Assembly (NCBI RefSeq): GCF_013177655.1
Contig: NZ_CP035946.1
Coordinates: 310,001 to 374,000, forward strand
Reading direction: 5' to 3'
Source: Campylobacter canadensis
Lineage (GTDB): Bacteria > Campylobacterota > Campylobacteria > Campylobacterales > Campylobacteraceae
Length of the DNA stretch: 64,000 nt
Part shown: one piece after another, positions 4,366-61,352 of the stretch
Layout: every line of letters starts with the position of its first letter
Numbering within the stretch: position 1 is the first letter of the stretch
Notes under the pieces: generated by a model
Database searches by the model: none
What the model saw: the letters and a program-made list of their open reading frames with translations, nothing else
What the model was told of the DNA's origin: nothing
Translations under genes and position numbers: made by a program

Positions 4366-4407
4366 TGCAAGGTGTGGCAGGGTTAAAACCTGCTAAAAAA
4401 CCTTGCA
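4366..4407 (+). other. Cassette border hairpin of silent flagellin cassette S1
   Basis: TGCAAGGT pairs with ACCTTGCA 27 bp later, with an inner stem GCAGG/CCTGC, separated by unequal bulges. The same structure heads all six silent flagellin cassettes and is absent from the intact flaA. S1 lacks the third arm (ACCTTG about 10 bp further out) that the other five have. An in-frame TAA follows just before the flagellin frame. Confidence 0.8.
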
Positions 4408-4433
4408 TATAAGTATTTAAAATCTTTATTGAT

Positions 4434-6326
4434 AATACTACTTCATTTAACGGGCAAAAATTATTAAGCGGAAACTTCTCAAACAAAGAATTCCAAATCG
4501 GTGCATATTCAAACGAAACAGTAAAAGCAAGTATCGGTGCAACAACATCAGATAAAATCGGCTTAACAAGATTTGAAACAGGGCATAATGTAAGAGCAAA
4601 AGATATGCCTATTGATGGTAAAATCACACTTACTTTTAAAAACGTTGATGGGATTAACGATGTTACTTTAGAGCCAGTACAAGTTGCAAAGGGTGGTTCT
4701 ACATTTGCAGGTGGCGGACTTGGTGCTTTAGCTGAAGCTATTAATAAATCAACCGATAAAACAGGTATTAAAGCTTCTGTATCAGCTATAAGTGTATTTG
4801 AATCTCCAATTAGAGCAGGTAAAACATCAGATGATTTTTCAATTAATGGTGTAAAAATCGGCTCAATAGAAGTAAAAGACAAAGATGGAAACGGTGCTTT
4901 AGTAGCTGCAATTAACGCAGTAACCGACCAAACAGGAGTAGAAGCATCAGTTGATAGCAAAGGTAGATTAGTATTAAACAACCGTGATGGTCGTGGTATT
5001 AAGATTACTGATGGTGTTGATAAGAGTTTTGATAAAGATGGTAAAGCCTATACTAAAACTACTTCCGCAGCAGCTGCAGACAAACATTTGTTTTTTACTA
5101 ATAAAGTAGCAGAAGTTGATGATGGCACAAAAAACACTGGGCAAATTGCTGTAGATTTTTCAAAATCAAATACTTGGGGTGGCGGTGGAGAAGATGCTGA
5201 TACCAATGGAAGTAATGATGCCAAAGATTCTATTTTAAACAAAAATAATATGTTTGATGATGTTAAAAAAGCATATTATGAGCAAGCTGCTAGACATGCT
5301 GCGGATGGTTATGAAAGAGCCAAAAATATCACTATCACAGAAGGTACAGGAATTGATTTATCTAAAATACATGCAAATATACAAGGTGCTTTACATTTAG
5401 CAATGGTTGCTGGAGGCAATACAGATGAAACAGCTGGTACAACAACAGCGGCTGGAGATAATGGTAAAGATACCTATAAGCAGTGGGTTGCTGATGCAAA
5501 TGATGCAATAAAAAAAGTAGCAGGACAAGAAACTTCAAAACATAATAGCCTACAAGATTTAAACGCTGCAATTGATGATGCAGTAAATAAACTTACAAAA
5601 GTTATTGATGCGGCTGCAGGTAAAACTATGGCAGATAATGAAGGGGAAAATGGTATTGTCGCATACGCTGCATTAAATTTCTTAAAAGGTTTAAAAGAAG
5701 GTTTAAATGAGCCTAATAGAAGTGGTTTAACTGATATTATTGGTTTAACTGATGAAAATAAAACTAATTTTGGAAGATTAAGCCTTAGCTCAAATAACGG
5801 AAGAGACATAGTTGTACAAGCAACAACTTCAGCTGTAGATGATAAAGGTAAACCAAAAGAAATTGATGTTACAAGCGCTTTAGGCTTTGATAAAAATGTT
5901 GTAGAAAAAACAATATCTTTAAGAGAAACAAACGCAACTATTTCTAAAGAAGACGCAGACGCAATGGGCTTTAACACAGAAGAATGGCAAGCAGGAGAGA
6001 GTGGCGACAACCAAAATGGTTACGCTGCAGGTGTAATGACCTTAAAAGGAGCAATGGCAATGATGAACATAGCAGAAAACGCTATTAAAGCACTAGAAGC
6101 TGTAAGAAGCGACCTTGGTTCTGTTCAAAACCAATTAGTTTCTACAATCAATAACATTAGCGTAACTCAAGTTAATGTTAAATCAGCAGAAAGCCAAATA
6201 AGAGACCTAGACTTTGCTAGTGAAAGTTCTAACTTTAGTAAGCAACAAATCCTAGCTCAAAGTGGTGTTTATGCGTTAAGCCAATCAAATGCAGTTCAAC
6301 AAAATGTTATGAAGTTGTTACAATAG
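4434..6326 (+). pseudogene. Silent flagellin cassette S1 (5'-truncated)
   Basis: 631 codons, open throughout, homologous to flaA codons 128-758 starting at NTTSFNG. There is no first 127 codons, no flagellin promoter, no ribosome site and no start codon at the border; a TAA lies in frame about 20 bp upstream. The first variable part (about 4590-4930, including RAKDMPIDGK) is unique to S1. From about 5030 to the end it matches flaA almost perfectly, with one visible difference (NGSND here, NGKND in flaA). The C-terminal D1/D0 part and the 3' terminator are the same as in flaA. An internal ATG at 4605 could start a 573-codon frame, but there is no sign that it is used. Best read as a donor for recombination into flaA. 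Confidence 0.9.
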
Positions 6327-8899: not shown

Positions 8900-8915
8900 T
8901 TAATAAAAACAAAAC

Positions 8916-9542: not shown

Positions 9543-9616
9543 CCTAGTACTGTAAATTTATTCTTGTGTTTTAACTATTGTCTTAAAAATACATTAAATT
9601 CAGTTTTATTTAAGCT

Positions 9617-10891: not shown

Positions 10892-10922
10892 AAAAAGGTA
10901 GTTTTTAGGCTACCTTTTTTTT
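10892..10922 (-). terminator. Intrinsic terminator after pil2
   Basis: Same AAGGTAG/CTACCTT stem with an A/T tract, read leftward after pil2. Confidence 0.85.
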
Positions 10923-10953
10923 GTAAAAATAATTATTATTTAGATTTAGTTTT

Positions 10954-12292: not shown

Positions 12293-12325
12293 AAAACAAA
12301 AAGAAGTTAGCTTTAGGCTAACTTC
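12293..12325 (-). terminator. Intrinsic terminator after S2
   Basis: GAAGTTAGC/GCTAACTTC stem with an A-run on the plus strand, giving U's in leftward transcripts. Followed by four copies of the 27-bp repeat towards the stop codon (12326-12450). Confidence 0.85.
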
Positions 12326-12456
12326 TAAGATAAGATTATAAGCTTTTGTTACTAAGATAACATTATAAGCTTTTGTTACTAAGCTAACATTATCAGCTTT
12401 TGTTACTAAGCTAACATTATCAGCTTTTGTTACTAAGCTAAGATTATATTCTTTTA

Positions 12457-14319
12457 CTATTGTAACAACTTCATAACATTTTGTTGAACTGCATTTGATT
12501 GGCTTAACGCATAAACACCACTTTGAGCTAGGATTTGTTGCTTACTAAAGTTAGAACTTTCACTAGCAAAGTCTAGGTCTCTTATTTGGCTTTCTGCTGA
12601 TTTAACATTAACTTGAGTTACGCTAATGTTATTGATTGTAGAAACTAATTGGTTTTGAACAGAACCAAGGTCGCTTCTTACAGCTTCTAGTGCTTTAATA
12701 GCGTTTTCTGCTATGTTCATCATTGCCATTGCTCCTTTTAAGGTCATTACACCTGCAGCGTAACCATTTTGGTTGTCGCCACTCTCTCCTGCTTGCCATT
12801 CTTCTGTGTTAAAGCCCATTGCGTCTGCGTCTTCTTTAGAAATAGTTGCGTTTGTTTCTCTTAAAGATATTGTTTTTTCTACAACATTTTTATCAAAGCC
12901 TAAAGCACTTGTAACATCAATTTCTTTTAATTTTCCATCTGCACCTACAACTGAAGTTGTTGCTTGTACAACTATGTCTCTTCCGTTATTTGAGCTAAGG
13001 CTTAATCTTCCAAAATTAGTTTTATTTTCATCAGTTAAACCAATAATATCAGTTAAACCACTTCTATTAGGCTCGTTTATGCTTTCTTTTACACCTTTTA
13101 AGAATTGTATAAATGAATGAGCTACCATAGCATCTTCACCTTCAGTAGTTGCCATAGTTTTACCTGCAGCACTATCAACTATTTTTGACATTGCATTTAT
13201 TGCAGCATCTATTTTAGCATTTGCATCAGCTACGCTAGCATGTTCTGTTTTAACTGCAGCTAAAGCAACTTTAGCTTCTTCTAATATACCACTAGGTTCT
13301 GCGCCTCCATTTGGACCAGTAGGTCCTTGTTTAGCATTAGCTAAATTTAATGCACCGATAGCTTTTGCAGCTAAATCTGTTAATGTTACCTTACCATCTT
13401 CTGCTACTTTACCTTTAGCTTGATCATAACCATCTTTTGCAATTCTTGCATCTTGTTCATAATGTGCTTTTTGTACATCTTCAAATTTATTATTTTCATT
13501 TAAAATTGAACCTTTATTACCATTTCCTGCTGTACCAGTTACTCCATCGCCTTTCCAAGTATCAACTGCACCCAAATCAACTGCTACTTGACCATTACCA
13601 AGTTTTGCATTACCTGTATCAGCTGCTTTATTATCACCTTTTGTTGTATATAGTAAATGTTTATCTGCTACACGACCATTTGTTATATCTTTATCACCTG
13701 TTTGTTTTGTAACATCTAAATTACTCTTATCAACACCATCAGTAATCTTAATACCACGACCATCACGGTTGTTTAATACTAATCTACCTTTGCTATCAAC
13801 TGATGCTTCTACTCCTGTTTGGTCTTTAACGGCATTAATTGCAGACCTTAAAGCACCGTTTCCATCTTTGTCTTTTACTTCTATTGAACCTATTGTAACA
13901 CCGTTGATTGAAAAGCCTTCAAGTGTTGTTCCTGCTTTAATTGGTTGTGCAAAAACTGTTTGAGCTGTTAAAGAAGCTTTAATACCTGTTTTATCGCTAG
14001 ATTTATTAATAGCTTCAGCTAAAACACCTAAACCATTACCTGCTTTAATATTGTTACCATCAACTATACTTACTGGTTCAAAAGTAAAATCATTAATTCC
14101 ATCAACATTTTTAAAAGTAACTGTTACTTTATCTCCACCTATTGCTAGGTCGCTTTGGCGTACATTATGTCCTGTTTCAAATCTTGTTAAGCCGATTTTA
14201 TCTGATGTTGTTGCACCAATACTTGCTTTTACTGTTTCGTTTGAATATGCACCGATTTGGAATTCTTTGTTTGAGAAGTTTCCACTTAATAATTTTTGCC
14301 CGTTAAATGAAGTAGTATT
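12457..14319 (-). pseudogene. Silent flagellin cassette S2 (5'-truncated)
   Basis: 621 codons, homologous to flaA from codon 128. There is no start codon, promoter or constant 5' end. The first variable part is the same as in flaA (NVRQSDLAIGGDKVT). The middle differs from flaA (SNLDVTKQTGDKDITNGRV, then GAVDTWKGDGVTG and KVALAAVKTEHASV), and so does the block MATTEGEDAMVAHSFIQF. The C-terminal 150 or so codons are the shared D1/D0 sequence. It lies directly downstream of the DUF3972-like gene in the same direction. Its translation is identical to S3. Confidence 0.9.
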
Positions 14320-14345
14320 ATCAATAAAGATTTTAAATACTTATA

Positions 14346-14402
14346 TGCAAGGTTTTTTAGCAGGTTTTAGCCCTGCCACACCTTGCACAATTTTTACAAG
14401 GT
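14346..14402 (-). other. Cassette border hairpin of S2
   Basis: On the plus strand: TGCAAGGT ... ACCTTGCA (14346-14387) with the inner GCAGG/CCTGC stem, then a third arm CAAGGT at 14397-14402 followed by T's. ACCTTG-N11-CAAGGT-TTTTTT reads rightward as a good intrinsic terminator, that is, antisense to the cassette and outward from it. Confidence 0.8.
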
Positions 14403-14427
14403 TTTTTATAAAAAAAGTAAAAATTGG

Positions 14428-20800: not shown

Positions 20801-20850
20801 ATTAATTTTTTTTTCTTTGTCAAGATTTTTTTTACTTTTTTTATAAAAAA

Positions 20851-20907
20851 ACCTTGTAAAAATTGTGCAAGGTGTGGCAGGGCTAAAACCTGCTAAAAAA
20901 CCTTGCA
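20851..20907 (+). other. Cassette border hairpin of S3
   Basis: ACCTTG (20851), TGCAAGGT (20866) and ACCTTGCA (20900-20907) with the inner GCAGG/CCTGC stem. The middle arm can pair with either outer arm. Confidence 0.8.
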
Positions 20908-20933
20908 TATAAGTATTTAAAATCTTTATTGAT

Positions 20934-22796
20934 AATACTACTTCATTTAACGGGCAAAAATTATTAAGTGGAAACTTCTCAAACAAAGAATTCCAAATCG
21001 GTGCATATTCAAACGAAACAGTAAAAGCAAGTATTGGTGCAACAACATCAGATAAAATCGGCTTAACAAGATTTGAAACAGGACATAATGTACGCCAAAG
21101 CGACCTAGCAATAGGTGGAGATAAAGTAACAGTTACTTTTAAAAATGTTGATGGAATTAATGATTTTACTTTTGAACCAGTAAGTATAGTTGATGGTAAC
21201 AATATTAAAGCAGGTAATGGTTTAGGTGTTTTAGCTGAAGCTATTAATAAATCTAGCGATAAAACAGGTATTAAAGCTTCTTTAACAGCTCAAACAGTTT
21301 TTGCACAACCAATTAAAGCAGGAACAACACTTGAAGGCTTTTCAATCAACGGTGTTACAATAGGTTCAATAGAAGTAAAAGACAAAGATGGAAACGGTGC
21401 TTTAAGGTCTGCAATTAATGCCGTTAAAGACCAAACAGGAGTAGAAGCATCAGTTGATAGCAAAGGTAGATTAGTATTAAACAACCGTGATGGTCGTGGT
21501 ATTAAGATTACTGATGGTGTTGATAAGAGTAATTTAGATGTTACAAAACAAACAGGTGATAAAGATATAACAAATGGTCGTGTAGCAGATAAACATTTAC
21601 TATATACAACAAAAGGTGATAATAAAGCAGCTGATACAGGTAATGCAAAACTTGGTAATGGTCAAGTAGCAGTTGATTTGGGTGCAGTTGATACTTGGAA
21701 AGGCGATGGAGTAACTGGTACAGCAGGAAATGGTAATAAAGGTTCAATTTTAAATGAAAATAATAAATTTGAAGATGTACAAAAAGCACATTATGAACAA
21801 GATGCAAGAATTGCAAAAGATGGTTATGATCAAGCTAAAGGTAAAGTAGCAGAAGATGGTAAGGTAACATTAACAGATTTAGCTGCAAAAGCTATCGGTG
21901 CATTAAATTTAGCTAATGCTAAACAAGGACCTACTGGTCCAAATGGAGGCGCAGAACCTAGTGGTATATTAGAAGAAGCTAAAGTTGCTTTAGCTGCAGT
22001 TAAAACAGAACATGCTAGCGTAGCTGATGCAAATGCTAAAATAGATGCTGCAATAAATGCAATGTCAAAAATAGTTGATAGTGCTGCAGGTAAAACTATG
22101 GCAACTACTGAAGGTGAAGATGCTATGGTAGCTCATTCATTTATACAATTCTTAAAAGGTGTAAAAGAAAGCATAAACGAGCCTAATAGAAGTGGTTTAA
22201 CTGATATTATTGGTTTAACTGATGAAAATAAAACTAATTTTGGAAGATTAAGCCTTAGCTCAAATAACGGAAGAGACATAGTTGTACAAGCAACAACTTC
22301 AGTTGTAGGTGCAGATGGAAAATTAAAAGAAATTGATGTTACAAGTGCTTTAGGCTTTGATAAAAATGTTGTAGAAAAAACAATATCTTTAAGAGAAACA
22401 AACGCAACTATTTCTAAAGAAGACGCAGACGCAATGGGCTTTAACACAGAAGAATGGCAAGCAGGAGAGAGTGGCGACAACCAAAATGGTTACGCTGCAG
22501 GTGTAATGACCTTAAAAGGAGCAATGGCAATGATGAACATAGCAGAAAACGCTATTAAAGCACTAGAAGCTGTAAGAAGCGACCTTGGTTCTGTTCAAAA
22601 CCAATTAGTTTCTACAATCAATAACATTAGCGTAACTCAAGTTAATGTTAAATCAGCAGAAAGCCAAATAAGAGACCTAGACTTTGCTAGTGAAAGTTCT
22701 AACTTTAGTAAGCAACAAATCCTAGCTCAAAGTGGTGTTTATGCGTTAAGCCAATCAAATGCAGTTCAACAAAATGTTATGAAGTTGTTACAATAG
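20934..22796 (+). pseudogene. Silent flagellin cassette S3 (5'-truncated)
   Basis: 621 codons from the flaA codon-128 junction. Translation identical to S2, which lies inverted on the other side of segment 2. No promoter, start codon or constant 5' end; a stop precedes the junction in frame. The internal ATG at 21678 has no visible ribosome site suited to expression. It lies downstream of the tRNA-Asn region. Confidence 0.9.
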
Positions 22797-22804
22797 TAAA
22801 AGAA

Positions 22805-22925
22805 TATAATCTTAGCTTAGTAACAAAAGCTGATAATGTTAGCTTAGTAACAAAAGCTGATAATGTTAGCTTAGTAACAAAAGCTTATAATGTTATCTTA
22901 GTAACAAAAGCTTATAATCTTATCT
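22805..22925 (+). repeat. 27-bp tandem repeat after S3, four copies
   Basis: Same unit as after S1, but four copies, two of them with AAAAGCTGATAATG instead of AAAAGCTTATAATG. Confidence 0.85.
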
Positions 22926-22927
22926 TA

Positions 22928-22955
22928 GAAGTTAGCCTAAAGCTAACTTCTTTTT
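22928..22955 (+). terminator. Intrinsic terminator after S3
   Basis: GAAGTTAGC/GCTAACTTC stem and TTTTTG. Confidence 0.85.
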
Positions 22956-23802
22956 GTTTTATTATATCCCCACATCACAACCATCAACAACCACATGCAA
23001 CCATTTTTGTTTTTCTAAATTCTTTTAATTTTCTTTTGCTTTTTTAAATTCATTTGATTTTCTTTTAGTCTCTTTTAATTTTCTTTTGCTTTTTTAACTT
23101 TATTTATACTGTTTTCAATTCTTTTTATTTCTTTTTATTTCTTTTTATTTCTTTTTATTTCTTTTTATTTCTTTTTATTTCTTTTTATTTCTTTTTGTTT
23201 CTTTTCAATTTTTTAGTTTTACTTACACTGTTTTCAATTCTTTTAGCTTTCTTTTAGTTTTTCAATTCTTTTTAATTTTTTTTATTTTCTTATCTACGCC
23301 CCCCCCCAAAAAAAACAATCAACAACACTAACTACAAGCTTAAATAAAACTGAATTTAATGTATTTTTAAGTTTGCAGTAAAAACACAAGATTAAATTAG
23401 CAGTATTACGAAGATTTGGAAGGGTTCGAAGGTTTAGAATAGTTAGAATAGTTGGTATAGTTGGAATGATTGGAATAGTTGTAAGAGTTAGAAGAAAGCA
23501 ACTTCAATCAAACCTAACTTAATATATTTATAAGTTTATTATTTGTTATTATGTATTTTTACTAAATGTTATTATCTTTATTTATTTATCTTACTTACTA
23601 ACACAAAAAAAGCATCTTTAAAAGTACTAAATAATCAACTTTAATTAGTAATCTTAAAGCTTAAAAAAAGCTAAAAAGTTATGTATTAAAATATAAGCTA
23701 AAGCTATAAAAGTATTTATACATAATAATTTAAAACCAAGTACTTATTTTAATTTCTTGCACAAAAAGTAAAAAGATAAATTATTTTTTACAAGGAGTTA
23801 TT
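22956..23802 (+). other. Intergenic stretch and pilin leader between S3 and pil3
   Basis: Reverse copy of 11452-12292: pyrimidine-rich words, the 10-bp array CTTTTTATTT (seven copies, 23121-23190), a C run of 9 (about 23299-23307), one approximately 75-bp element (about 23330) and the common pilin leader from about 23505. No gene. Confidence 0.7.
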
Positions 23803-24300
23803 ATGAAAAAAGGTTTTACAATGATTGAACTAATCTTTGTTATTGTTATTTTAGGTATATTAGCTGCTGTGGCTATTCCTAAGATTAATGCTACTAGAGA
23901 TGATGCAGAACAAGTAAAGGCTACACAAAATATTGCAACATTAATGGGTGACTTTGCGTCTTTTTATACTTCTCAAGGTGGGTTTAGGGATTCAAGTGGA
24001 AGTAATATCCCTTTTCATAAAATAACAAATGTTGCTTTAGATAGTAATGGTAATTTAAAGATTAAAAATGAAGTTTGCTTAAAATTTGAAATAGCTGACG
24101 ATTCAAGTATTAAAATTACTTCTTCAGGTTCTTCAAGTGGTAATAGTGGTAAGAAGTTATGTTCAAAAATTGTAGCAGCTTCTACATTATTAAGAAATAC
24201 TGCTGATGGAAAACAGTTAGATGATAATAATGAAATAACAATTGATTACTCTGCAAGTGGAATAAATTTTGATGGAGTGTCTTCTACAAAAGCTAAATAA
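23803..24300 (+). CDS. pil3: prepilin-like protein, variant Y
   Basis: 165 residues, same protein as pil2. Class III signal peptide MKKGFTMIEL with cleavage expected after Gly4, one membrane or stalk helix, a cysteine pair at about 92 and 120, and tail VSSTKAK. Full leader and AAGGAG site, terminator at 24334. Being one half of an exact inverted pair, it either adds dosage or is a reserve copy; the sequence does not say which copy is expressed. Confidence 0.83.
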   Translation: MKKGFTMIELIFVIVILGILAAVAIPKINATRDDAEQVKATQNIATLMGDFASFYTSQGGFRDSSGSNIPFHKITNVALDSNGNLKIKNEVCLKFEIADDSSIKITSSGSSSGNSGKKLCSKIVAASTLLRNTADGKQLDDNNEITIDYSASGINFDGVSSTKAK

Positions 24301-24333
24301 AAAACTAAATCTAAATAATAATTATTTTTACAA

Positions 24334-24362
24334 AAAAAAGGTAGCCTAAAAACTACCTTTTT
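24334..24362 (+). terminator. Intrinsic terminator after pil3
   Basis: AAGGTAG/CTACCTT stem with A- and T-tracts. Confidence 0.85.
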
Positions 24363-26311
24363 ACTTACACTTCTCAAACCTTCAAACAAGTAAAAAAACA
24401 AACACACAACTTAACTCATTAACCCCACCCCCATCAAAAAACAATCAACACCCCCCCCCCAACCATCATTCAACCCTGCACAGCTACCAATCCTTACTCC
24501 GCTTAGCCCACAAATCTTCTTTTTACAACATCTCATAATCAGTTTTTATCCCCGCACAATTATCCAACCACTCAAACTTTACCCCACCAAAAAAACAACT
24601 ATCCACTACCTACCTTCAAGCTCAAACTATAAGCTTAAATAAAACTTAATTTAATGTATTTTTAAGTTTATATAAAAAACATAAGATTAAATTAGCAACA
24701 TTTAGGGAAATTCTTTTAAATTTTTTAGTTTATTATGCTTTTTTAACTTTATTTATACTGTTTTTAATTCTTTTACTTTCTTTTGGTTTTATTATCTATT
24801 CTCCTTTACTACAAACAAACACAAAAATACTATCAATTAAACCAACCATTCTTACACTATAAATAATATTTACACACTATCTAATTACTAAAACTTTACT
24901 CTACCCCCCCCCCCAAAAAAAACAACTACTCACAACCTACCTTCAAGCTATCAACTATACACTTAAATAAAACTTAATTTAATGTGTTCTTAAGTTTGTA
25001 GTAAAAAAAACACAAGATTAAATTAGCAATATTTATGGAAATTCTTTTAAATTTTTTAGTTTATTTTGCTTTTTTAACTTTATTTACACTGTTTTCAATT
25101 CTTTTACTTTCTTTTACTTTTTCTAAACTCTTTTTGCTTTCTTATGCCTCTCTAACTAAAAATCACTATTCCATCCCCCCCCCAACCATCATTCAACCCT
25201 GCACAGCCATCAATCCTTACTCCGCTTATCAATACCCTAAAATATTTTTACGCTATCCAACCACTCAAACTTTACCCCACCAAAAAACAATCAACAACTC
25301 CAACTATAAACTTAAATAAAACTTAATTTAATATATTCTTAAGTTTGTAGTAAAAAATATGCGATTAAAATTACAGCACTATACAAAGATTGCGAAGATT
25401 TGAAGATTTGAAGGTTTGGAAGGTTTGGAAGGTTTGAAGATTTGAAGGTTTGGAAGGTTTGGAAGATTTGAAGGTTTGGAAGGTTTGGAAGATTTGAAGG
25501 TTTGGAAGGTTTGGAAGGTTTGGAAGATTTGAAGGTTTGGAAGGTTTGGAAGGTTTGGAAGATTTGGAAGATTTGGAAGATTTGGAAGATTTGGAAGATT
25601 TGGAAGATTTGGAAGATTTGGAAGATTTGGAAGGGTGCAGCTTAAATAAAACTGAATTTAATGTATTTTTAAGACAATAGTTAAAACACAAGAATAAATT
25701 TACAGTACTAGGAAAATGAATAAAATGAATAAAATGAATAAAATGAATAAAATGAATAAAATGAATAAAATGAATAAAATGAATAAAATGAATAAAATGA
25801 AGAAGTTAGCAGCTTAAATAAAACTTAATTTAATCTATTCTTAAGCTTATAGCAAAAAGTACAAGATTAAATTAGTAGTATTTAGGAAAATTAGGAAAAA
25901 TCTTTTACTTTCTTTTTGCCTTTTTACTCATTTTTACTGTCTCTAAATTCTTTCAGCTTTTTTTAATTTTTTAATCTTTTTAAATTTATTTGCTTTTTAA
26001 TTAGTAGTATTTTTGTATTTGCTTGGATTTATTAGAAGGATTTAAAATTGTTTTGTTTATTTGATAGTTGTAGTTGCATGTTTTGGTAGTAAAGATAATT
26101 TAATTTATTATAGTTTTGCTTATATTAATACATAGCTTTTTAGCTTTTTTAAGCTTTAGAATTGGCTTTAAATAAGATAAAAAATAAGAAAAAAGATTAA
26201 GAAAAATAAAATAAATTATTATAGAATGAAGATACTTTAAATTTGTTTTGTTATGTTTTGTTATTTTGACTTTGTTTGTTTTATTTGTTTGAAGGTTTGA
26301 GAAGTGTAAGT
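24363..26311. other. Centre of island B between convergent pilin genes
   Basis: Reverse copy of 8944-10891. C runs of 10 (24451-24460), 11 (24904-24914) and 9 (25175-25183); element copies near 24630, 24955, 25305, 25636 and 25808; the 9-bp array at about 25385-25632 and the 10-bp array at about 25711-25803. No gene. Confidence 0.7.
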
Positions 26312-26339
26312 AAAAAGGTAGTTTTTAGGCTACCTTTTT
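26312..26339 (-). terminator. Intrinsic terminator after pil4
   Basis: AAGGTAG/CTACCTT stem, read leftward. Confidence 0.85.
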
Positions 26340-26355
26340 GTTTTGTTTTTATTAA

Positions 26356-26841
26356 TTAGAAATCAAAATTTACACTTGAAGCGGCGAAATCGATTGTTGC
26401 TGTACCACTACCAGTTGATAAATCATTACCACCAAAAGCTGCTTTAACTGTTGATAATTTTAAAGTTTCTTCACAAGCTTTACTAGGTGAAGTTGTTTTT
26501 CCTGTAAAAGTAACTTTACCATTTGCAGAATCAACCTTAATCTTTAAACAATCACTATCTGAGCCAATCTTTAATTGTGCAGTATCTGTAGCGGTGCTAC
26601 TAAAAGCCACATTAGTCATTTTTGCAAAATCAATATCAGTACCACCAGTCTTAGTAGCAAATTCCCCCTGAGCCGTATAATAAGACCCTAAATCCCCAAT
26701 TAAAGTAACAATATTTTGAGCTGACTTAACCTTCTCCGCATCATCTCTAGTAGCATTAATCTTAGGAATAGCCACAGCAGCTAATATACCTAAAATAACA
26801 ATAACAAAGATTAGTTCAATCATTGTAAAACCTTTTTTCAT
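26356..26841 (-). CDS. pil4: prepilin-like protein, variant X
   Basis: 161 residues, same protein as pil1, on the opposite strand. Prepilin signal, invariant N-terminus to about residue 59, cysteines at 98 and 123. The leader is intact up to 27141. Upstream of the leader the flank differs from pil1 and instead matches the flank of pil12 (GCTTGTAGTTGATAGC...), so flanks and genes have been re-paired by recombination at the leader edge. Confidence 0.83.
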   Translation of the reverse strand: MKKGFTMIELIFVIVILGILAAVAIPKINATRDDAEKVKSAQNIVTLIGDLGSYYTAQGEFATKTGGTDIDFAKMTNVAFSSTATDTAQLKIGSDSDCLKIKVDSANGKVTFTGKTTSPSKACEETLKLSTVKAAFGGNDLSTGSGTATIDFAASSVNFDF

Positions 26842-27473
26842 AATAACTCCTTGTAAAAAATAATTTATCTTTTTACTTTTTGTGCAAGAAATTAAAATAA
26901 GTACTTGGTTTTAAATTATTATGCATAAATACTTTTATAGCTTTAGCTTATATTTTAATACATAACTTTTTAGCTTTTTTTAAGCTTTAAAATTACTAAT
27001 TAAAGTTGATTATTTAGTACTTTTAAAGATGCTTTTTTGTGTTAGTAAGTAAGATAAATAAATAAAGATAATAACATTTAGTAAAAATACATAATAACAA
27101 ATAATAAACTTATAAATATATTAAGTTAGGTTTGATTGAAGCTTGTAGTTGATAGCTTGAAGGTAGGTGGTGGGTAGTTGTTTTTTTTGGTGGGGGGGGG
27201 TGGGGTATGAAAATAAAAAGAAATAAAAAGAAATAAAAAGAAATAAAAAGAAATAAAAAGAAATAAAAAGAAATAAAAAGAAATAAAAAGAAATAAAAAG
27301 AAATAAAAAGAATTGAAAACAGTATAAATAAAGTTAAAAAAGCAAAAGAAAATTAAAAGAGACTAAAAGAAAATCAAATGAATTTAAAAAAGCAAAAGAA
27401 AATTAAAAGAATTTAGAAAAACAAAAATGGTTGCATGTGGTTGTTGATGGTTGTGATGTGGGGATATAATAAA
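26842..27473 (-). other. Leader of pil4 and purine-rich intergenic stretch
   Basis: Pilin leader to 27141, then a G run of 9 (27192-27200) after T's, ten perfect copies of AAATAAAAAG (27211-27310) and purine-rich words. The closest relative of this layout is 11940-12292. No gene. Confidence 0.7.
27211..27310. repeat. 10-bp tandem repeat AAATAAAAAG, ten copies
   Basis: Ten perfect units, against seven in the related arrays at 12061 and 23121. Confidence 0.88.
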
Positions 27474-27580: not shown

Positions 27581-29443
27581 CTATTGTAACAACTTCATAA
27601 CATTTTGTTGAACTGCATTTGATTGGCTTAACGCATAAACACCACTTTGAGCTAGGATTTGTTGCTTACTAAAGTTAGAACTTTCACTAGCAAAGTCTAG
27701 GTCTCTTATTTGGCTTTCTGCTGATTTAACATTAACTTGAGTTACGCTAATGTTATTGATTGTAGAAACTAATTGGTTTTGAACAGAACCAAGGTCGCTT
27801 CTTACAGCTTCTAGTGCTTTAATAGCGTTTTCTGCTATGTTCATCATTGCCATTGCTCCTTTTAAGGTCATTACACCTGCAGCGTAACCATTTTGGTTGT
27901 CGCCACTCTCTCCTGCTTGCCATTCTTCTGTGTTAAAGCCCATTGCGTCTGCGTCTTCTTTAGAAATAGTTGCGTTTGTTTCTCTTAAAGATATTGTTTT
28001 TTCTACAACATTTTTATCAAAGCCTAAAGCACTTGTAACATCAATTTCTTTTAATTTTCCATCTGCACCTACAACTGAAGTTGTTGCTTGTACAACTATG
28101 TCTCTTCCGTTATTTGAGCTAAGGCTTAATCTTCCAAAATTAGTTTTATTTTCATCAGTTAAACCAATAATATCAGTTAAACCACTTCTATTAGGCTCGT
28201 TTATGCTTTCTTTTACACCTTTTAAGAATTGTATAAATGAATGAGCTACCATAGCATCTTCACCTTCAGTAGTTGCCATAGTTTTACCTGCAGCACTATC
28301 AACTATTTTTGACATTGCATTTATTGCAGCATCTATTTTAGCATTTGCATCAGCTACGCTAGCATGTTCTGTTTTAACTGCAGCTAAAGCAACTTTAGCT
28401 TCTTCTAATATACCACTAGGTTCTGCGTTTTCATTTGGACCAGTAGGTCCTTTTTTAGCATTAGCTAAATTTAATGCACCGATAGCTTTTGCAGCTAAAT
28501 TTGTTAATGTTACCTTACCATCTTCTGCTACTTTACCTTTAGCTTGATCATAACCATCTTTTGCAATTCTTGCATCTTGTTCATAATGTGCTTTTTGTAC
28601 ATCTTCAAATTTATTATTTTCATTTAAAATTGAACCTTTATTACCATTTCCTGCTGTACCAGTTACTCCATCGCCTTTCCAAGTATCAACTGCACCCAAA
28701 TCAACTGCTACTTGACCATTACCAAGTTTTGCATTACCTGTATCAGCTGCTTTATTATCACCTTTTGTTGTATATAGTAAATGTTTATCTGCTACACGAC
28801 CATTTGTTATATCTTTATCACCTGTTTGTTTTGTAACATCTAAATTACTCTTATCAACACCATCAGTAATCTTAATACCACGACCATCACGGTTGTTTAA
28901 TACTAATCTACCTTTGCTATCAACTGATGCTTCTACTCCTGTTTGGTCTTTAACGGCATTAATTGCAGACCTTAAAGCACCGTTTCCATCTTTGTCTTTT
29001 ACTTCTATTGAACCTATTGTAACACCGTTGATTGAAAAGCCTTCAAGTGTTGTTCCTGCTTTAATTGGTTGTGCAAAAACTGTTTGAGCTGTTAAAGAAG
29101 CTTTAATACCTGTTTTATCGCTAGATTTATTAATAGCTTCAGCTAAAACACCTAAACCATTACCTGCTTTAATATTGTTACCATCAACTATACTTACTGG
29201 TTCAAAAGTAAAATCATTAATTCCATCAACATTTTTAAAAGTAACTGTTACTTTATCTCCACCTATTGCTAGGTCGCTTTGGCGTACATTATGTCCTGTT
29301 TCAAATCTTGTTAAGCCGATTTTATCTGATGTTGTTGCACCAATACTTGCTTTTACTGTTTCGTTTGAATATGCACCGATTTGGAATTCTTTGTTTGAGA
29401 AGTTTCCACTTAATAATTTTTGCCCGTTAAATGAAGTAGTATT
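27581..29443 (-). pseudogene. Silent flagellin cassette S4 (5'-truncated)
   Basis: 621 codons of the S2 type with a few changes: LTNLAAKA for LTDLAAKA, ANAKKGPT for ANAKQGPT, and PNENAEP for PNGGAEP. No start codon, promoter or 5' constant region. It lies just downstream of the response-regulator gene in the same direction. It points away from flaA and forms, with the 3' part of flaA, an inverted repeat around segment 3. It is the nearest inverted partner for exchange with flaA. Confidence 0.9.
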
Positions 29444-29469
29444 ATCAATAAAGATTTTAAATACTTATA

Positions 29470-29526
29470 TGCAAGGTTTTTTAGCAGGTTTTAGCCCTGC
29501 CACACCTTGCACAATTTTTACAAGGT
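29470..29526 (-). other. Cassette border hairpin of S4
   Basis: TGCAAGGT (29470), ACCTTGCA (29504-29511) and CAAGGT (29521-29526) followed by T's. Shared sequence ends after TTTTTTTATAA, which marks the outer border of this copy. Confidence 0.8.
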
Positions 29527-37149: not shown

Positions 37150-37176
37150 TAAAAATTTTTTTACCACCACCGATAT
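37150..37176 (+). promoter_or_regulatory. Sigma-28 (FliA) promoter of flaA
   Basis: TAAA (37150-37153), 15 bp, then ACCGATAT (37169-37176). Spacing and -10 match the flagellar sigma-28 consensus TAAA-N15-GCCGATAA. It is the only such promoter seen next to a flagellin copy; no cassette has one. Confidence 0.85.
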
Positions 37177-37181
37177 AGTTT

Positions 37182-37203
37182 TTGCTGACAAGGATGCCAG
37201 CAA
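37182..37203 (+). promoter_or_regulatory. Leader hairpin in the flaA 5' untranslated region
   Basis: TTGCTG pairs with CAGCAA around a 10-nt loop containing AAGGATG, about 10 bp before the AAGGAG site (37214-37219). It could stabilise the mRNA or bind a regulator such as CsrA, whose usual target is GGA in a loop. Function inferred. Confidence 0.45.
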
Positions 37204-37225
37204 TTATTTTTTTAAGGAGAAAATT

Positions 37226-39502
37226 ATGGGATTTCGTATTAACACAAATATAGATGCGCTAAGCGCTCACGTTTCAGCTTCTGCAACAAACAGAAACATC
37301 ACAAGTTCATTAAACAAACTTAACTCAGGTTTAAGAATTAACTCAGCAGCAGATGATGCTTCAGGTCTTGCTATCGCAGACAGCTTAAGAGTACAATCAG
37401 AGTCATTAACTCAAGCAATTTCAAACGCAAATGATGCAATCGGTATTATCCAAACAGCTGACAAAGCAATGGATGAGCAAATCAAAATCTTAACAACAAT
37501 TAAGACAAAAGCAGTTCAAGCAGCTCAAGATGGTCAAACCACAGAGACAAGACGCTCACTTCAAGCAGACATCAGTCGTTTAATGGAAGAACTAGACAAT
37601 ATCGGTAATACTACTTCATTTAACGGGCAAAAATTATTAAGTGGAAACTTCTCAAACAAAGAATTCCAAATCGGTGCATATTCAAACGAAACAGTAAAAG
37701 CAAGTATTGGTGCAACAACATCAGATAAAATCGGCTTAACAAGATTTGAAACAGGACATAATGTACGCCAAAGCGACCTAGCAATAGGTGGAGATAAAGT
37801 AACAGTTACTTTTAAAAATGTTGATGGAATTAATGATTTTACTTTTGAACCAGTAAGTATAGTTGATGGTAACAATATTAAAGCAGGTAATGGTTTAGGT
37901 GTTTTAGCTGAAGCTATTAATAAATCTAGCGATAAAACAGGTATTAAAGCTTCTTTAACAGCTCAAACAGTTTTTGCACAACCAATTAAAGCAGGAACAA
38001 CACTTGAAGGCTTTTCAATCAACGGTGTTACAATAGGTTCAATAGAAGTAAAAGACAAAGATGGAAACGGTGCTTTAAGGTCTGCAATTAATGCCGTTAA
38101 AGACCAAACAGGAGTAGAAGCATCAGTTGATAGCAAAGGTAGATTAGTATTAAACAACCGTGATGGTCGTGGTATTAAGATTACTGATGGTGTTGATAAG
38201 AGTTTTGATAAAGATGGTAAAGCCTATACTAAAACTACTTCCGCAGCAGCTGCAGACAAACATTTGTTTTTTACTAATAAAGTAGCAGAAGTTGATGATG
38301 GCACAAAAAACACTGGGCAAATTGCTGTAGATTTTTCAAAATCAAATACTTGGGGTGGCGGTGGAGAAGATGCTGATACCAATGGAAAAAATGATGCCAA
38401 AGATTCTATTTTAAACAAAAATAATATGTTTGATGATGTTAAAAAAGCATATTATGAGCAAGCTGCTAGACATGCTGCGGATGGTTATGAAAGAGCCAAA
38501 AATATCACTATCACAGAAGGTACAGGAATTGATTTATCTAAAATACATGCAAATATACAAGGTGCTTTACATTTAGCAATGGTTGCTGGAGGCAATACAG
38601 ATGAAACAGCTGGTACAACAACAGCGGCTGGAGATAATGGTAAAGATACCTATAAGCAGTGGGTTGCTGATGCAAATGATGCAATAAAAAAAGTAGCAGG
38701 ACAAGAAACTTCAAAACATAATAGCCTACAAGATTTAAACGCTGCAATTGATGATGCAGTAAATAAACTTACAAAAGTTATTGATGCGGCTGCAGGTAAA
38801 ACTATGGCAGATAATGAAGGGGAAAATGGTATTGTCGCATACGCTGCATTAAATTTCTTAAAAGGTTTAAAAGAAGGTTTAAATGAGCCTAATAGAAGTG
38901 GTTTAACTGATATTATTGGTTTAACTGATGAAAATAAAACTAATTTTGGAAGATTAAGCCTTAGCTCAAATAACGGAAGAGACATAGTTGTACAAGCAAC
39001 AACTTCAGCTGTAGATGATAAAGGTAAACCAAAAGAAATTGATGTTACAAGCGCTTTAGGCTTTGATAAAAATGTTGTAGAAAAAACAATATCTTTAAGA
39101 GAAACAAACGCAACTATTTCTAAAGAAGACGCAGACGCAATGGGCTTTAACACAGAAGAATGGCAAGCAGGAGAGAGTGGCGACAACCAAAATGGTTACG
39201 CTGCAGGTGTAATGACCTTAAAAGGAGCAATGGCAATGATGAACATAGCAGAAAACGCTATTAAAGCACTAGAAGCTGTAAGAAGCGACCTTGGTTCTGT
39301 TCAAAACCAATTAGTTTCTACAATCAATAACATTAGCGTAACTCAAGTTAATGTTAAATCAGCAGAAAGCCAAATAAGAGACCTAGACTTTGCTAGTGAA
39401 AGTTCTAACTTTAGTAAGCAACAAATCCTAGCTCAAAGTGGTGTTTATGCGTTAAGCCAATCAAATGCAGTTCAACAAAATGTTATGAAGTTGTTACAAT
39501 AG
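37226..39502 (+). CDS. flaA: Flagellin FlaA, the only complete copy
   Basis: 758 residues, much longer than the roughly 575 of C. jejuni FlaA because of a large central domain. The N-terminal D0/D1 part (1-170) has INTNIDALSAHVSA, LNSGLRINSAADDASGLAIA and ADKAMDEQIKIL, the epsilon-proteobacterial form known to escape TLR5. The C-terminal D1/D0 part (about 620-758) has MAMMNIAENAIKALEAVRSD and ends SNAVQQNVMKLLQ. Codons 1-127 occur only here; codons 128-758 have six silent relatives. The gene is a mosaic: up to about codon 315 it is like S2/S3, and after SFDKDGKAYTK it is like S1. Sigma-28 promoter, AAGGAG site, terminator at 39607. The product is secreted and polymerises into the filament. 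Confidence 0.97.
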   Translation: MGFRINTNIDALSAHVSASATNRNITSSLNKLNSGLRINSAADDASGLAIADSLRVQSESLTQAISNANDAIGIIQTADKAMDEQIKILTTIKTKAVQAAQDGQTTETRRSLQADISRLMEELDNIGNTTSFNGQKLLSGNFSNKEFQIGAYSNETVKASIGATTSDKIGLTRFETGHNVRQSDLAIGGDKVTVTFKNVDGINDFTFEPVSIVDGNNIKAGNGLGVLAEAINKSSDKTGIKASLTAQTVFAQPIKAGTTLEGFSINGVTIGSIEVKDKDGNGALRSAINAVKDQTGVEASVDSKGRLVLNNRDGRGIKITDGVDKSFDKDGKAYTKTTSAAAADKHLFFTNKVAEVDDGTKNTGQIAVDFSKSNTWGGGGEDADTNGKNDAKDSILNKNNMFDDVKKAYYEQAARHAADGYERAKNITITEGTGIDLSKIHANIQGALHLAMVAGGNTDETAGTTTAAGDNGKDTYKQWVADANDAIKKVAGQETSKHNSLQDLNAAIDDAVNKLTKVIDAAAGKTMADNEGENGIVAYAALNFLKGLKEGLNEPNRSGLTDIIGLTDENKTNFGRLSLSSNNGRDIVVQATTSAVDDKGKPKEIDVTSALGFDKNVVEKTISLRETNATISKEDADAMGFNTEEWQAGESGDNQNGYAAGVMTLKGAMAMMNIAENAIKALEAVRSDLGSVQNQLVSTINNISVTQVNVKSAESQIRDLDFASESSNFSKQQILAQSGVYALSQSNAVQQNVMKLLQ

Positions 39503-39606
39503 TAAAAGAATATAATCTTAGCTTAGTAACAAAAGCTTATAATGTTAGCTTAGTAACAAAAGCTTATAATGTTAGCTTAGTAACAAAAGCTTATAATCTT
39601 ATCTTA

Positions 39607-39634
39607 GAAGTTAGCCTAAAGCTAACTTCTTTTT
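39607..39634 (+). terminator. Intrinsic terminator of flaA
   Basis: GAAGTTAGC/GCTAACTTC stem and TTTTTG, preceded by three copies of the 27-bp repeat (39512-39596). Confidence 0.88.
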
Positions 39635-50257: not shown

Positions 50258-51187
50258 TTAAAATTTTCTTAAATTGAATATTTTTTTTAACTTTTGCTGT
50301 TCTGCCCTTGAATAAATATTATGTGAATAAACTTTGCTTAACATTGATATATCTTTATGCCCTAATAACTTTGCTATTAAGGGGAGATTTACATTTTTAT
50401 TTGTCAATAAACTTGCGTAGGTGTGCCTTGTTGAGTGTAGGGATTTTTGCTTAATATTATGTTTTTTAAGTAACTTTTTAAAAGAATAATAAATTGAATG
50501 ATAACTTTGTGTGAATGATTTGAATTTTATTTTTTGTAAATGCTCTTTTAAAAGCTCTGGCATATATATTTTACGAGATTGATTATTTTTAGGAGTGCTT
50601 ATGCCGTAGCGAGTTTTATTTAGGGTTATTAAAATATAATTTTGCTTGTAATTAATGCTAGAATTCGTTAGGGCTAGGATTTCTCCTGCTCTTGCACCTG
50701 TGAAAAATGCAAAATATAAAAAGGTTTGAAGTTCGCTTGCGGAAGTTAGTAAAAGGGATTTTATTTGGCTTAGTTTAAAAGTTTTTTTGTTATTTTGGAT
50801 TGATGGTTTAAGCTTTTTTATGGTTTTTGTGGTTGGGTTTTGACTTATTATATTTAAATCTATTGCTAGGTTAAAGGCGCTTGATGCATAGGAGATGATT
50901 TGCTTTATGCTGCTTTGTTTTAAGCCTTTATTTAAAAGAGAATTTAAAAGGGAGTAAAAGTCTAGGTTTGTGTATGTGCTGATGGCTTTATCTTCAAGAT
51001 AGCTAAAAAGTGTTTTGTGAAGAAAAAATCTTGTGCTTTTGGTGGTTTGCTTGATATGGCTTAGCTTTGTATTTAGCTTGCAAAGTTGTGAAAGCTTTGA
51101 GTGTTTAGCGATTTTGCTTGGTTTTGCGATGGCAAAAAATAATTTTTTTATTTTTTTAAATATGTTTAAAAAATAATTTAAAAACAT
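50258..51187 (-). CDS. Tyrosine recombinase / integrase
   Basis: 309 residues from the ATG at 51187, which has AGGAG 5 bp upstream; a longer reading start exists at 51220 but is less likely. Basic N-terminus, SAM-like core-binding domain (about 70-150), catalytic domain with Arg in FTGARAGEILAL, a beta-hairpin Lys in NQSRKIYMP, HSTRHTYASLL, LLGHKDIS and Tyr in SKVYSHNIYS. All catalytic residues are present, so it is probably active. It is a stand-alone, phage-integrase-like enzyme, not adjacent to phage or transfer genes. It reads into the truncated pil10 leader, on the edge of an inverted repeat, so it may act on the islands or be a passenger. Confidence 0.88.
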   Translation of the reverse strand: MFLNYFLNIFKKIKKLFFAIAKPSKIAKHSKLSQLCKLNTKLSHIKQTTKSTRFFLHKTLFSYLEDKAISTYTNLDFYSLLNSLLNKGLKQSSIKQIISYASSAFNLAIDLNIISQNPTTKTIKKLKPSIQNNKKTFKLSQIKSLLLTSASELQTFLYFAFFTGARAGEILALTNSSINYKQNYILITLNKTRYGISTPKNNQSRKIYMPELLKEHLQKIKFKSFTQSYHSIYYSFKKLLKKHNIKQKSLHSTRHTYASLLTNKNVNLPLIAKLLGHKDISMLSKVYSHNIYSRAEQQKLKKIFNLRKF

Positions 51188-51275
51188 TGTGTCTCCTTTG
51201 TGTAAAATTAATTCATACAAATATTATCCTTTATTTGATATATTTTTAGTGCAATTTTAAAAATAAGGAGAAAAA

Positions 51276-52087: not shown

Positions 52088-52144
52088 ACCTTGTAAAAAT
52101 TGTGCAAGGTGTGGCAGGGTTAAAACCTGCTAAAAGACCTTGCA
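52088..52144 (+). other. Cassette border hairpin of S5
   Basis: ACCTTG (52088), TGCAAGGT (52103) and ACCTTGCA (52137-52144), with the inner GCAGG/CCTGC stem and one base change in the last bulge (TAAAAG for TAAAAA). Confidence 0.8.
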
Positions 52145-52170
52145 TATAAGTATTTAAAATCTTTATTGAT

Positions 52171-54033
52171 AATACTACTTCATTTAACGGGCAAAAATTA
52201 TTAAGTGGAAACTTCTCAAACAAAGAATTCCAAATCGGTGCATATTCAAACGAAACAGTAAAAGCAAGTATTGGTGCAACAACATCAGATAAAATCGGCT
52301 TAACAAGATTTGAAACAGGACATAATGTACGCCAAAGCGACCTAGCAATAGGTGGAGATAAAGTAACAGTTACTTTTAAAAATGTTGATGGAATTAATGA
52401 TTTTACTTTTGAACCAGTAAGTATAGTTGATGGTAACAATATTAAAGCAGGTAATGGTTTAGGTGTTTTAGCTGAAGCTATTAATAAATCTAGCGATAAA
52501 ACAGGTATTAAAGCTTCTTTAACAGCTCAAACAGTTTTTGCACAACCAATTAAAGCAGGAACAACACTTGAAGGCTTTTCAATCAACGGTGTTACAATAG
52601 GTTCAATAGAAGTAAAAGACAAAGATGGAAACGGTGCTTTAAGGTCTGCAATTAATGCCGTTAAAGACCAAACAGGAGTAGAAGCATCAGTTGATAGCAA
52701 AGGTAGATTAGTATTAAACAACCGTGATGGTCGTGGTATTAAGATTACTGATGGTGTTGATAAGAGTAATTTAGATGTTACAAAACAAACAGGTGATAAA
52801 GATATAACAGATGGTCGTGTAGCAGATAAACATTTACTATATACAACAAAAGGTGATAATAAAGCAGCTGATACAGGTAATGCAAAACTTGGTAATGGTC
52901 AAGTAGCAGTTGATTTGGGTGCAGTTGATACTTGGAAAGGCGATGGAGTAACTGGTACAGCAGGAAATGGTAATAAAGGTTCAATTTTAAATGAAAATAA
53001 TAAATTTGAAGATGTACAAAAAGCACATTATGAACAAGATGCAAGAATTGCAAAAGATGGTTATGATCAAGCTAAAGGTAAAGTAGCAGAAGATGGTAAG
53101 GTAACATTAACAGATTTAGCTGCAAAAGCTATCGGTGCATTAAATTTAGCTAATGCTAAACAAGGACCTACTGGTCCAAATGAAGGCGCAGAACCTAGTG
53201 GTATATTAGAAGAAGCTAAAGTTGCTTTAGCTGCAGTTAAAACAGAACATGCTAGCGTAGCTGATGCAAATGCTAAAATAGATGCTGCAATAAATGCAAT
53301 GTCAAAAATAGTTGATAGTGCTGCAGGTAAAACTATGGCAGATAATGAAGGGGAAAATGGTATTGTCGCATACGCTGCATTAAATTTCTTAAAAGGTTTA
53401 AAAGAAGGTTTAAATGAGCCTAATAGAAGTGGTTTAACTGATATTATTGGTTTAACTGATGAAAATAAAACTAATTTTGGAAGATTAAGCCTTAGCTCAA
53501 ATAACGGAAGAGACATAGTTGTACAAGCAACAACTTCAGTTGTAGGTGCAGATGGAAAATTAAAAGAAATTGATGTTACAAGTGCTTTAGGCTTTGATAA
53601 AAATGTTGTAGAAAAAACAATATCTTTAAGAGAAACAAACGCAACTATTTCTAAAGAAGACGCAGACGCAATGGGCTTTAACACAGAAGAATGGCAAGCA
53701 GGAGAGAGTGGCGACAACCAAAATGGTTACGCTGCAGGTGTAATGACCTTAAAAGGAGCAATGGCAATGATGAACATAGCAGAAAACGCTATTAAAGCAC
53801 TAGAAGCTGTAAGAAGCGACCTTGGTTCTGTTCAAAACCAATTAGTTTCTACAATCAATAACATTAGCGTAACTCAAGTTAATGTTAAATCAGCAGAAAG
53901 CCAAATAAGAGACCTAGACTTTGCTAGTGAAAGTTCTAACTTTAGTAAGCAACAAATCCTAGCTCAAAGTGGTGTTTATGCGTTAAGCCAATCAAATGCA
54001 GTTCAACAAAATGTTATGAAGTTGTTACAATAG
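52171..54033 (+). pseudogene. Silent flagellin cassette S5 (5'-truncated, mosaic)
   Basis: 621 codons of S2 type, except for a patch around 53341-53417 (MADNEGENGIVAYAALNFLKG), which is identical in bases to S1 and flaA where S2, S3, S4 and S6 have TEGEDAMVAHSFIQF. After the patch it returns to S2 type (SVVGADGKLKEID). Also ITDGRV for ITNGRV. No promoter, start or 5' constant part. It lies downstream of sodB. Confidence 0.9.
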
Positions 54034-59406: not shown

Positions 59407-61269
59407 CTATTGTAACAACTTCATAACATTTTGTTGAACTGCATTTGATTGGCTTAACGCATAAACACCACTTTGAGCTAGGATTTGTTGCTTACTAAAG
59501 TTAGAACTTTCACTAGCAAAGTCTAGGTCTCTTATTTGGCTTTCTGCTGATTTAACATTAACTTGAGTTACGCTAATGTTATTGATTGTAGAAACTAATT
59601 GGTTTTGAACAGAACCAAGGTCGCTTCTTACAGCTTCTAGTGCTTTAATAGCGTTTTCTGCTATGTTCATCATTGCCATTGCTCCTTTTAAGGTCATTAC
59701 ACCTGCAGCGTAACCATTTTGGTTGTCGCCACTCTCTCCTGCTTGCCATTCTTCTGTGTTAAAGCCCATTGCGTCTGCGTCTTCTTTAGAAATAGTTGCG
59801 TTTGTTTCTCTTAAAGATATTGTTTTTTCTACAACATTTTTATCAAAGCCTAAAGCACTTGTAACATCAATTTCTTTTAATTTTCCATCTGCACCTACAA
59901 CTGAAGTTGTTGCTTGTACAACTATGTCTCTTCCGTTATTTGAGCTAAGGCTTAATCTTCCAAAATTAGTTTTATTTTCATCAGTTAAACCAATAATATC
60001 AGTTAAACCACTTCTATTAGGCTCGTTTATGCTTTCTTTTACACCTTTTAAGAATTGTATAAATGAATGAGCTACCATAGCATCTTCACCTTCAGTAGTT
60101 GCCATAGTTTTACCTGCAGCACTATCAACTATTTTTGACATTGCATTTATTGCAGCATCTATTTTAGCATTTGCATCAGCTACGCTAGCATGTTCTGTTT
60201 TAACTGCAGCTAAAGCAACTTTAGCTTCTTCTAATATACCACTAGGTTCTGCGCCTTCATTTGGACCAGTAGGTCCTTGTTTAGCATTAGCTAAATTTAA
60301 TGCACCGATAGCTTTTGCAGCTAAATCTGTTAATGTTACCTTACCATCTTCTGCTACTTTACCTTTAGCTTGATCATAACCATCTTTTGCAATTCTTGCA
60401 TCTTGTTCATAATGTGCTTTTTGTACATCTTCAAATTTATTATTTTCATTTAAAATTGAACCTTTATTACCATTTCCTGCTGTACCAGTTACTCCATCGC
60501 CTTTCCAAGTATCAACTGCACCCAAATCAACTGCTACTTGACCATTACCAAGTTTTGCATTACCTGTATCAGCTGCTTTATTATCACCTTTTGTTGTATA
60601 TAGTAAATGTTTATCTGCTACACGACCATTTGTTATATCTTTATCACCTGTTTGTTTTGTAACATCTAAATTACTCTTATCAACACCATCAGTAATCTTA
60701 ATACCACGACCATCACGGTTGTTTAATACTAATCTACCTTTGCTATCAACTGATGCTTCTACTCCTGTTTGGTCTTTAACGGCATTAATTGCAGACCTTA
60801 AAGCACCGTTTCCATCTTTGTCTTTTACTTCTATTGAACCTATTGTAACACCGTTGATTGAAAAGCCTTCAAGTGTTGTTCCTGCTTTAATTGGTTGTGC
60901 AAAAACTGTTTGAGCTGTTAAAGAAGCTTTAATACCTGTTTTATCGCTAGATTTATTAATAGCTTCAGCTAAAACACCTAAACCATTACCTGCTTTAATA
61001 TTGTTACCATCAACTATACTTACTGGTTCAAAAGTAAAATCATTAATTCCATCAACATTTTTAAAAGTAACTGTTACTTTATCTCCACCTATTGCTAGGT
61101 CGCTTTGGCGTACATTATGTCCTGTTTCAAATCTTGTTAAGCCGATTTTATCTGATGTTGTTGCACCAATACTTGCTTTTACTGTTTCGTTTGAATATGC
61201 ACCGATTTGGAATTCTTTGTTTGAGAAGTTTCCACTTAATAATTTTTGCCCGTTAAATGAAGTAGTATT
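59407..61269 (-). pseudogene. Silent flagellin cassette S6 (5'-truncated)
   Basis: 621 codons of S2 type, with PNEGAEP where S2 has PNGGAEP. No start codon, promoter or constant 5' part. Inverted relative to flaA and S5. Unlike S2 and S4 it does not follow a gene in its own direction; hemJ, on the other strand, starts about 100 bp outside the border. Confidence 0.9.
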
Positions 61270-61295
61270 ATCAATAAAGATTTTAAATACTTATA

Positions 61296-61352
61296 TGCAA
61301 GGTTTTTTAGCAGGTTTTAGCCCTGCCACACCTTGCACAATTTTTACAAGGT
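61296..61352 (-). other. Cassette border hairpin of S6
   Basis: TGCAAGGT (61296), ACCTTGCA (61330-61337) and CAAGGT (61347-61352) followed by TTTTTTT. The outer flank TATAAAAAAAGTAAAA is also found outside S2 and S3. Confidence 0.8.

Follow-up and report, generated by a model that had tools for sequence, protein, structure and literature searches.

A single complete flagellin gene and six partial copies

We analysed a stretch of 64,000 nucleotides (the window) from the genome of Campylobacter canadensis, a single contig of 1,923,009 bases. The window comprises its positions 310001-374000, and coordinates are those of the window unless stated otherwise. Its open frame and domain matches identify flaA (37226..39502, +; 758 aa) as the sole complete flagellin gene in the genome. 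Pfam places Flagellin_N at residues 5-141, the best stretch of Flagellin_IN at 263-311 and Flagellin_C at 673-757, and the N- and C-terminal domains score above cut-off (PF00669/PF00700/PF07196), making flaA a member of the flagellin family. Only one other Flagellin_N match was found in the whole genome, a 784-aa frame at genome position 1245679 that, from its low score and length, looks like FlgL. With this sole second match read as FlgL, the genome is therefore without flaB. Comparison with congeners revealed a sigma-28-type -10 element, CCGATATAG, at 37170 and the Shine-Dalgarno and start region TTTTTTTAAGGAGAAAATTATG, together occupying 37168..37225 (+). Both are kept 5′ of the complete flagellin in two congeners, and flaA, with its start codon and a promoter conserved in three species, appears to be the one expressed copy. 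No match to flaA was found in phage records, and thus that collection gives no sign of a phage origin.

A blastn search of flaA against the window returned six further places, all matching the region after codon 125, and a whole-genome search found no additional copies. We refer to these as cassettes S1 (4427..6326, +), S2 (12457..14326, -), S3 (20927..22796, +), S4 (27581..29450, -), S5 (52164..54033, +) and S6 (59407..61276, -). The genome therefore holds one complete Flagellin_N gene and six Flagellin_C-only copies. In each cassette, homology to flaA runs from codon ~127 to the stop codon and on through 27-bp repeats and a terminator-like hairpin. Each reads as an open frame, 630 codons long in S1, and a stop codon precedes the homology by about 8 codons. 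None of the six contains a Flagellin_N domain or start codon, and CCGATATAG and TTTTTTTAAGGAGAAAATTATG, the putative promoter and ribosome site of flaA, are likewise missing upstream of them. S1-S6 would thus be silent partial copies, to judge from the signals that they lack.

A 40-nt hairpin (predicted -24.1 kcal/mol as RNA) lies 5′ of S1 at 4367..4406 (+) and recurs 5′ of the other cassettes at 14347-14386 (-), 20867-20906 (+), 29471-29510 (-), 52104-52143 (+) and 61297-61336 (-). This element, which has a two-part stem, has six matches in the window, all upstream of cassettes and none elsewhere there, and it is absent from the flagellin arrays of the congeners. A shared C-rich motif 5′ of the cassettes was also considered as a candidate signal and dropped, its exact form being found only upstream of two cassettes of one sister species (G002).

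Pilin-like genes and repeats among the cassettes

Interspersed with the flagellin cassettes are twelve pilin-like genes (MKKGFTMIELIFVIVILGILAAVAIPKIN...) that are identical in their start regions but vary in their 3′ halves. These are found at 8414 (+), 11451 (-), 23803 (+), 26841 (-), 41232 (+), 42783 (+), 44347 (+), 45886 (+), 47416 (+), 50176 (-), 56113 (+) and 58873 (-), and a thirteenth copy lies at genome position 1167357. Eleven of the twelve share >200 bp of upstream sequence. The copy at 50176, which directly follows a tyrosine recombinase-like gene (frame 50258-51220, -), departs from this shared sequence beyond about -55. The pilin-like array looks like a second cassette system. 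Moreover, the window contains a 6.3-kb inverted repeat (8111-14423 and 20829-27143, 99.8% identity) that carries a flagellin cassette and pilin-like genes and could allow inversion of the intervening stretch. Short coding tandem repeats are present on both arms, at 9622-9866 and 25371-25691.

flaA is a mosaic of cassette sequences

Alignment of flaA with the six cassettes divides the gene downstream of its start region into five parts. A 5′ anchor (37606..37755, +; codons 127-177) is common to flaA and all cassettes, with two differences between S1 and S2. It is followed by variable module 1 (37756..38101, +), which in flaA is identical to S2-S6, the S2-like sites beginning at 37642; S1 has its own type of module 1. 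A 101-bp block (38102..38202, +; codons 293-326), GRLVLNNRDGRGIKITDGVDKS, is identical in all seven copies and leads into variable module 2 (38203..39052, +), where flaA is of S1 type. Lastly, a 3′ anchor (39053..39632, +) shared with the cassettes includes the conserved C-terminal part, the stop codon, the 27-bp tandem repeats and the terminator-like hairpin. Here, downstream of the stop codon, the 3′ repeats and the post-hairpin sequence of flaA match S1 and S5, not S2-S4.

An earlier note on this DNA had proposed that two cassette types are combined in flaA and that they meet by a crossover in shared sequence at about 38120-38200, a claim to be checked by sliding-window identity and a breakpoint test and to be given up if an alignment revealed no sharp change of nearest relative. 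The change is sharp. In 60-bp steps, flaA matches S2-S6 at 60/60 throughout 37646-38185 and S1 at only 36-51/60 between 37766 and 38125; from 38186 it matches S1 at 60/60 in all steps but one, and identity to S2-S6 is far lower per step until the shared 3′ part. At sites that discriminate S1 from S2, flaA is S2-like at 91/91 between 37642 and 38101 and S1-like at 312/313 (105 + 207) between 38203 and 39052, the exception being 38389. A maximum chi-square test over 332 ungapped informative sites puts the break between 38101 and 38204 with a statistic of 326.9, and the highest value among 2000 site shuffles was 22.4. Both approaches place the switch in the 38102-38202 block, which contains the crossover and supports the proposed position within a slightly wider interval. 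The block starts inside the Flagellin_IN motif and ends just beyond it.

The finer claims of the note needed some adjustment. The front stretch is of S2 type as stated, ending at codon 326 and not at about 315. The four cassettes named as its matches (S2, S3, S4 and S6) all hold, and S5, which had been omitted, matches equally well. In the back half, the single reported residue difference from S1 (NGK against NGS, K for S) is real and is caused by two adjacent bases, 38388-38389, the only differences from S1 in module 2. These two bases, without a match in S1, speak against a cassette origin of all of flaA.

S5 is itself a mosaic. In flaA numbering it is S2-like to 38788, S1-like over 38810-38884 (24 sites) and S2-like again over 39009-39052, so that the S1-type tract is at least 75 bp long (about 53341-53415 of the window). 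Two breaks around a short tract are the pattern that a gene conversion tract would leave. It follows from this tract that silent copies can be recipients too, and that sequence is not copied in one direction only, from store to expression site.

The closest solved structure to flaA is Flagellin A (PDB 6x80); the alignment takes in the first 323 residues, and relative to this structure the greater part of module 2 (about 325-564) is an insertion. A single AlphaFold model of moderate quality (mean pLDDT 64.9, pTM 0.45) predicts mainly strands in module 1 and mainly helices in module 2, and in this model a linker of low confidence (323-342) begins where the exchange block ends.

Flagellin copies in sister species and in the wider family

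The same layout is found in two sister species of the same small genus, each represented, like that of the window, by a single genome. Campylobacter sp. RM12651 from a Canada goose (G001), to whose plasmids the two smaller contigs of that genome are 100% identical, contains one complete flagellin and two silent copies with homology from codon 12. The second sister species (G002) has four silent copies, starting from codons 5-12, beside one complete flagellin. All six of these silent copies read as open frames, and a further count for nine of the twelve cassettes across the three species again gave no stops. The complete flagellin of G001 and its cassette a run together for 943 bp, with three mismatches, and part at codon 326. 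The complete flagellin of G002 matches its cassette b over 929 bp with no mismatch and departs at codon 321, and for cassettes a and d of that genome 999 bp are shared, with departure slightly further on. As flaA of the window departs at codon 326-327, the break in the three species falls at, or some ten to twenty codons from, the conserved motif GRGIK. The mosaic reading is strengthened by the expressed flagellins of the two sister species switching at codons 326 and 321, each after a stretch with 99.7-100% identity to one cassette.

In both sister species, the complete gene is a mosaic of cassette sequence by virtue of module 1 alone. No copy in the same genome exceeds 48% aa identity to module 2 of the complete gene. 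With no donor for the expressed module 2 in either genome, cassettes do not explain everything in these species; this module was either retained from an older state or received from a donor since gone. RM12651 has been reported as closest to Campylobacter canadensis (PMC10975922), and the genome of the window is a more distant member of the group with RM12651. A 60-contig draft from the same genus (G003) returned no flagellin domain match.

The synonymous divergence of S1 from S2 amounts to 0.595 for module 1 and 0.81 for module 2, but is 0 for both the middle block and the C-terminal anchor. In the C-terminal anchor, flaA and the G001 gene are separated by a dS of 1.24. Zero anchor divergence within a genome and 1.24 between genomes mean that the anchors are homogenised per genome while the modules stay different, a pattern suggestive of concerted exchange. 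Moreover, the trees of the two modules conflict: module 1 of flaA groups with S2, S5 and copies from both congeners, and module 2 with S1 and cassette a of G001. Module types are common to several species in these trees and are therefore older than these species, and the conflict itself may be read as independent exchange of the two modules.

Among 150 sampled family genomes, only that of the window pairs many C-terminal with few N-terminal flagellin matches (8 vs 2), in a count that is blind to copies shortened only at codon 12. In the remaining genomes the two counts are broadly alike, apart from slight excesses in some of the fragmented drafts. Up to twelve matches per flagellin domain, in complete frames, occur in a related genus, where the arrangement is different. 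Three genomes from a family genus other than that of the window (G054, G018 and G007) have seven to twelve matches per domain scattered round the chromosome, with nearly identical C-terminal scores. In G143, three flagellin frames are clustered at C1:431472-439190, one without the first ~30 positions of the N-terminal domain; this is possibly a similar small system in another genus. A flagellin scan of genome contigs gave matches in Helicobacter and other Campylobacterota and none from the window's own clade.

Proposed mechanism and alternative explanations

Taken together, these sequence comparisons point to flaA as the expression site of a flagellin cassette system that uses segmental gene conversion, a reading to which we give a probability of roughly 0.83. 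S1-S6, lacking a promoter, a start codon and the first ~126 codons, would serve as sequence stores, and homologous recombination would copy sequence between them and flaA segment by segment. We infer that transfer is by non-reciprocal gene conversion involving RecA-type enzymes. Exchange tracts would begin and end in blocks identical in all copies, namely codons 127-177, the end of Flagellin_IN (codons 293-326) and the C-terminal region together with 3′ untranslated sequence. At least one such event would have produced flaA as it now stands, joining an S2-S6-type module 1 to an S1-type module 2 within 38102-38202. The likely effect is combinatorial change in the surface-exposed middle of the protein while the filament-forming ends stay constant. 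If cassettes are reused, open frames are to be expected, and all six in the window and the six in the congeners are open.

Copying may also have run the other way, S1 having taken its module 2, or S2-S6 their module 1, from flaA, with flaA as the source and the cassettes as the record of it. That S5 has received a tract, and that the expressed genes of G001 and G002 carry a module 2 present in no cassette, would fit such a history. Yet module 1 of S1 is unlike that of flaA, and five cassettes share one module 1 and one module 2, a spread that from flaA alone would take several separate events. We consider this direction rather unlikely, though any single event may have gone either way. Import of flagellin sequence from another strain by natural transformation would account for module types common to several species and for the module 2 donors missing in G001 and G002. 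Against import, module 1 of flaA is identical to five resident cassettes and its module 2 is two adjacent bases off resident S1; this near-identity makes a resident source the simpler one, and import improbable.

The region is rich in duplications, of which the inverted repeat at 99.8% identity is an example, and the cassettes could in principle be ordinary duplicated flagellin genes decaying by drift with occasional recombination and with no role in switching. Decaying copies would gather stops and varied ends, but the twelve cassettes in three species are open, uniformly truncated and without a start codon, leaving this explanation quite improbable. Misjoined reads deserve mention since the break falls inside a 101-bp repeat common to seven copies, and the 60-contig draft of a sister taxon (G003) lacks any flagellin. 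The copy numbers argue strongly otherwise: module 1 is present as one S1-type to six S2-type copies and module 2 as two to five, so that a copy with an S2-type front and an S1-type back must exist at least once, however the reads are put together. Moreover, in the two other genomes the switch occurs at the same site or right beside it and leads into a back half found nowhere else, which misjoining cannot make. An assembly artefact is therefore highly improbable. Preferring segmental conversion at an expression site, we lean, by a small measure, towards a clade-wide system with two slots, in which module 1 and module 2 types would be swapped independently of each other, with a fixed anchor at the end of Flagellin_IN as the point of exchange. 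Types would persist across species and anchors would be homogenised within species, and here the system would be interleaved with the similar pilin-like array.

Comparison with known systems and implications

Known silent-cassette systems act on surface lipoproteins, pilins and S-layers. The text of PMC5126078 that cites Harrington 1997 and Wassenaar 1995 attributes to them recombination between flaA and flaB of C. jejuni/coli, genes with separate promoters, sigma-28 and sigma-54 (PMC5126078). The likeness to the present case is close, in a related Campylobacter with a flagellin mosaic arising by within-genome recombination, for which antigenic variation was proposed. Unlike that two-gene arrangement, there is here one complete gene with six start-less partial copies, and a pair of complete flagellin genes with separate promoters was found nowhere in the whole genome. 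As in vlsE/vls of Borrelia burgdorferi, one expressed gene is accompanied by a silent cassette array and would undergo segmental replacement. Events at vlsE are ‘unanchored’ and mostly short, and the donors are unaltered (PMC2632889), unlike the tracts here of ~600-940 bp that end at a fixed conserved block in a different protein. One-way transfer with unchanged donors was also looked at here, and the S1-type tract carried by S5 marks a recombinant cassette. Neisseria pilE/pilS (PMC3899283) resembles the proposed system in that partial silent copies supply one expression locus, and differs in protein, genus and donor layout.

A further parallel within Campylobacter is the sap system of C. fetus. 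There, full-length homologues that have a 5′ region in common are brought behind a promoter by relocation or inversion. Variation of the S-layer depends on one promoter expressing one of several recombining homologues (PMC3887049). The common elements are the genus, the single promoter and the exchange of homologues by recombination; the difference is that internal segments would be exchanged here and the 5′ part of flaA is missing from the cassettes. Systems of this kind are known. The present one is set apart by the protein concerned, by having one complete gene and no flaB, by long tracts whose ends lie at a fixed anchor, and by recombinant cassettes. The literature searched, which leaves out most subscription journals, contained no description of a silent-cassette system for flagellin. 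A review on bacterial antigen variation (PMC4534519) had no match for ‘flagellin’, and literature on silent flagellin cassettes yielded only the unrelated ‘silent flagellin’ in the TLR5 sense.

Typing by flaA and drafts from short reads can overlook such a locus or put it together wrongly. A 92-contig draft of MG1, a goose isolate from the same clade, was reported to give ‘no significant hits’ for flaA (PMC10056850). By analogy with the systems above, the arrangement may serve escape from immunity or from phages. Host immune responses have flagellin as a main target, and selection could also come from phages. From the comparison of the copies, this bird-associated Campylobacter and its two sister species are probably able to rearrange the outer flagellar surface. 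One gene with many cassettes and a fixed recombination anchor would represent a simple natural model of modular gene conversion.
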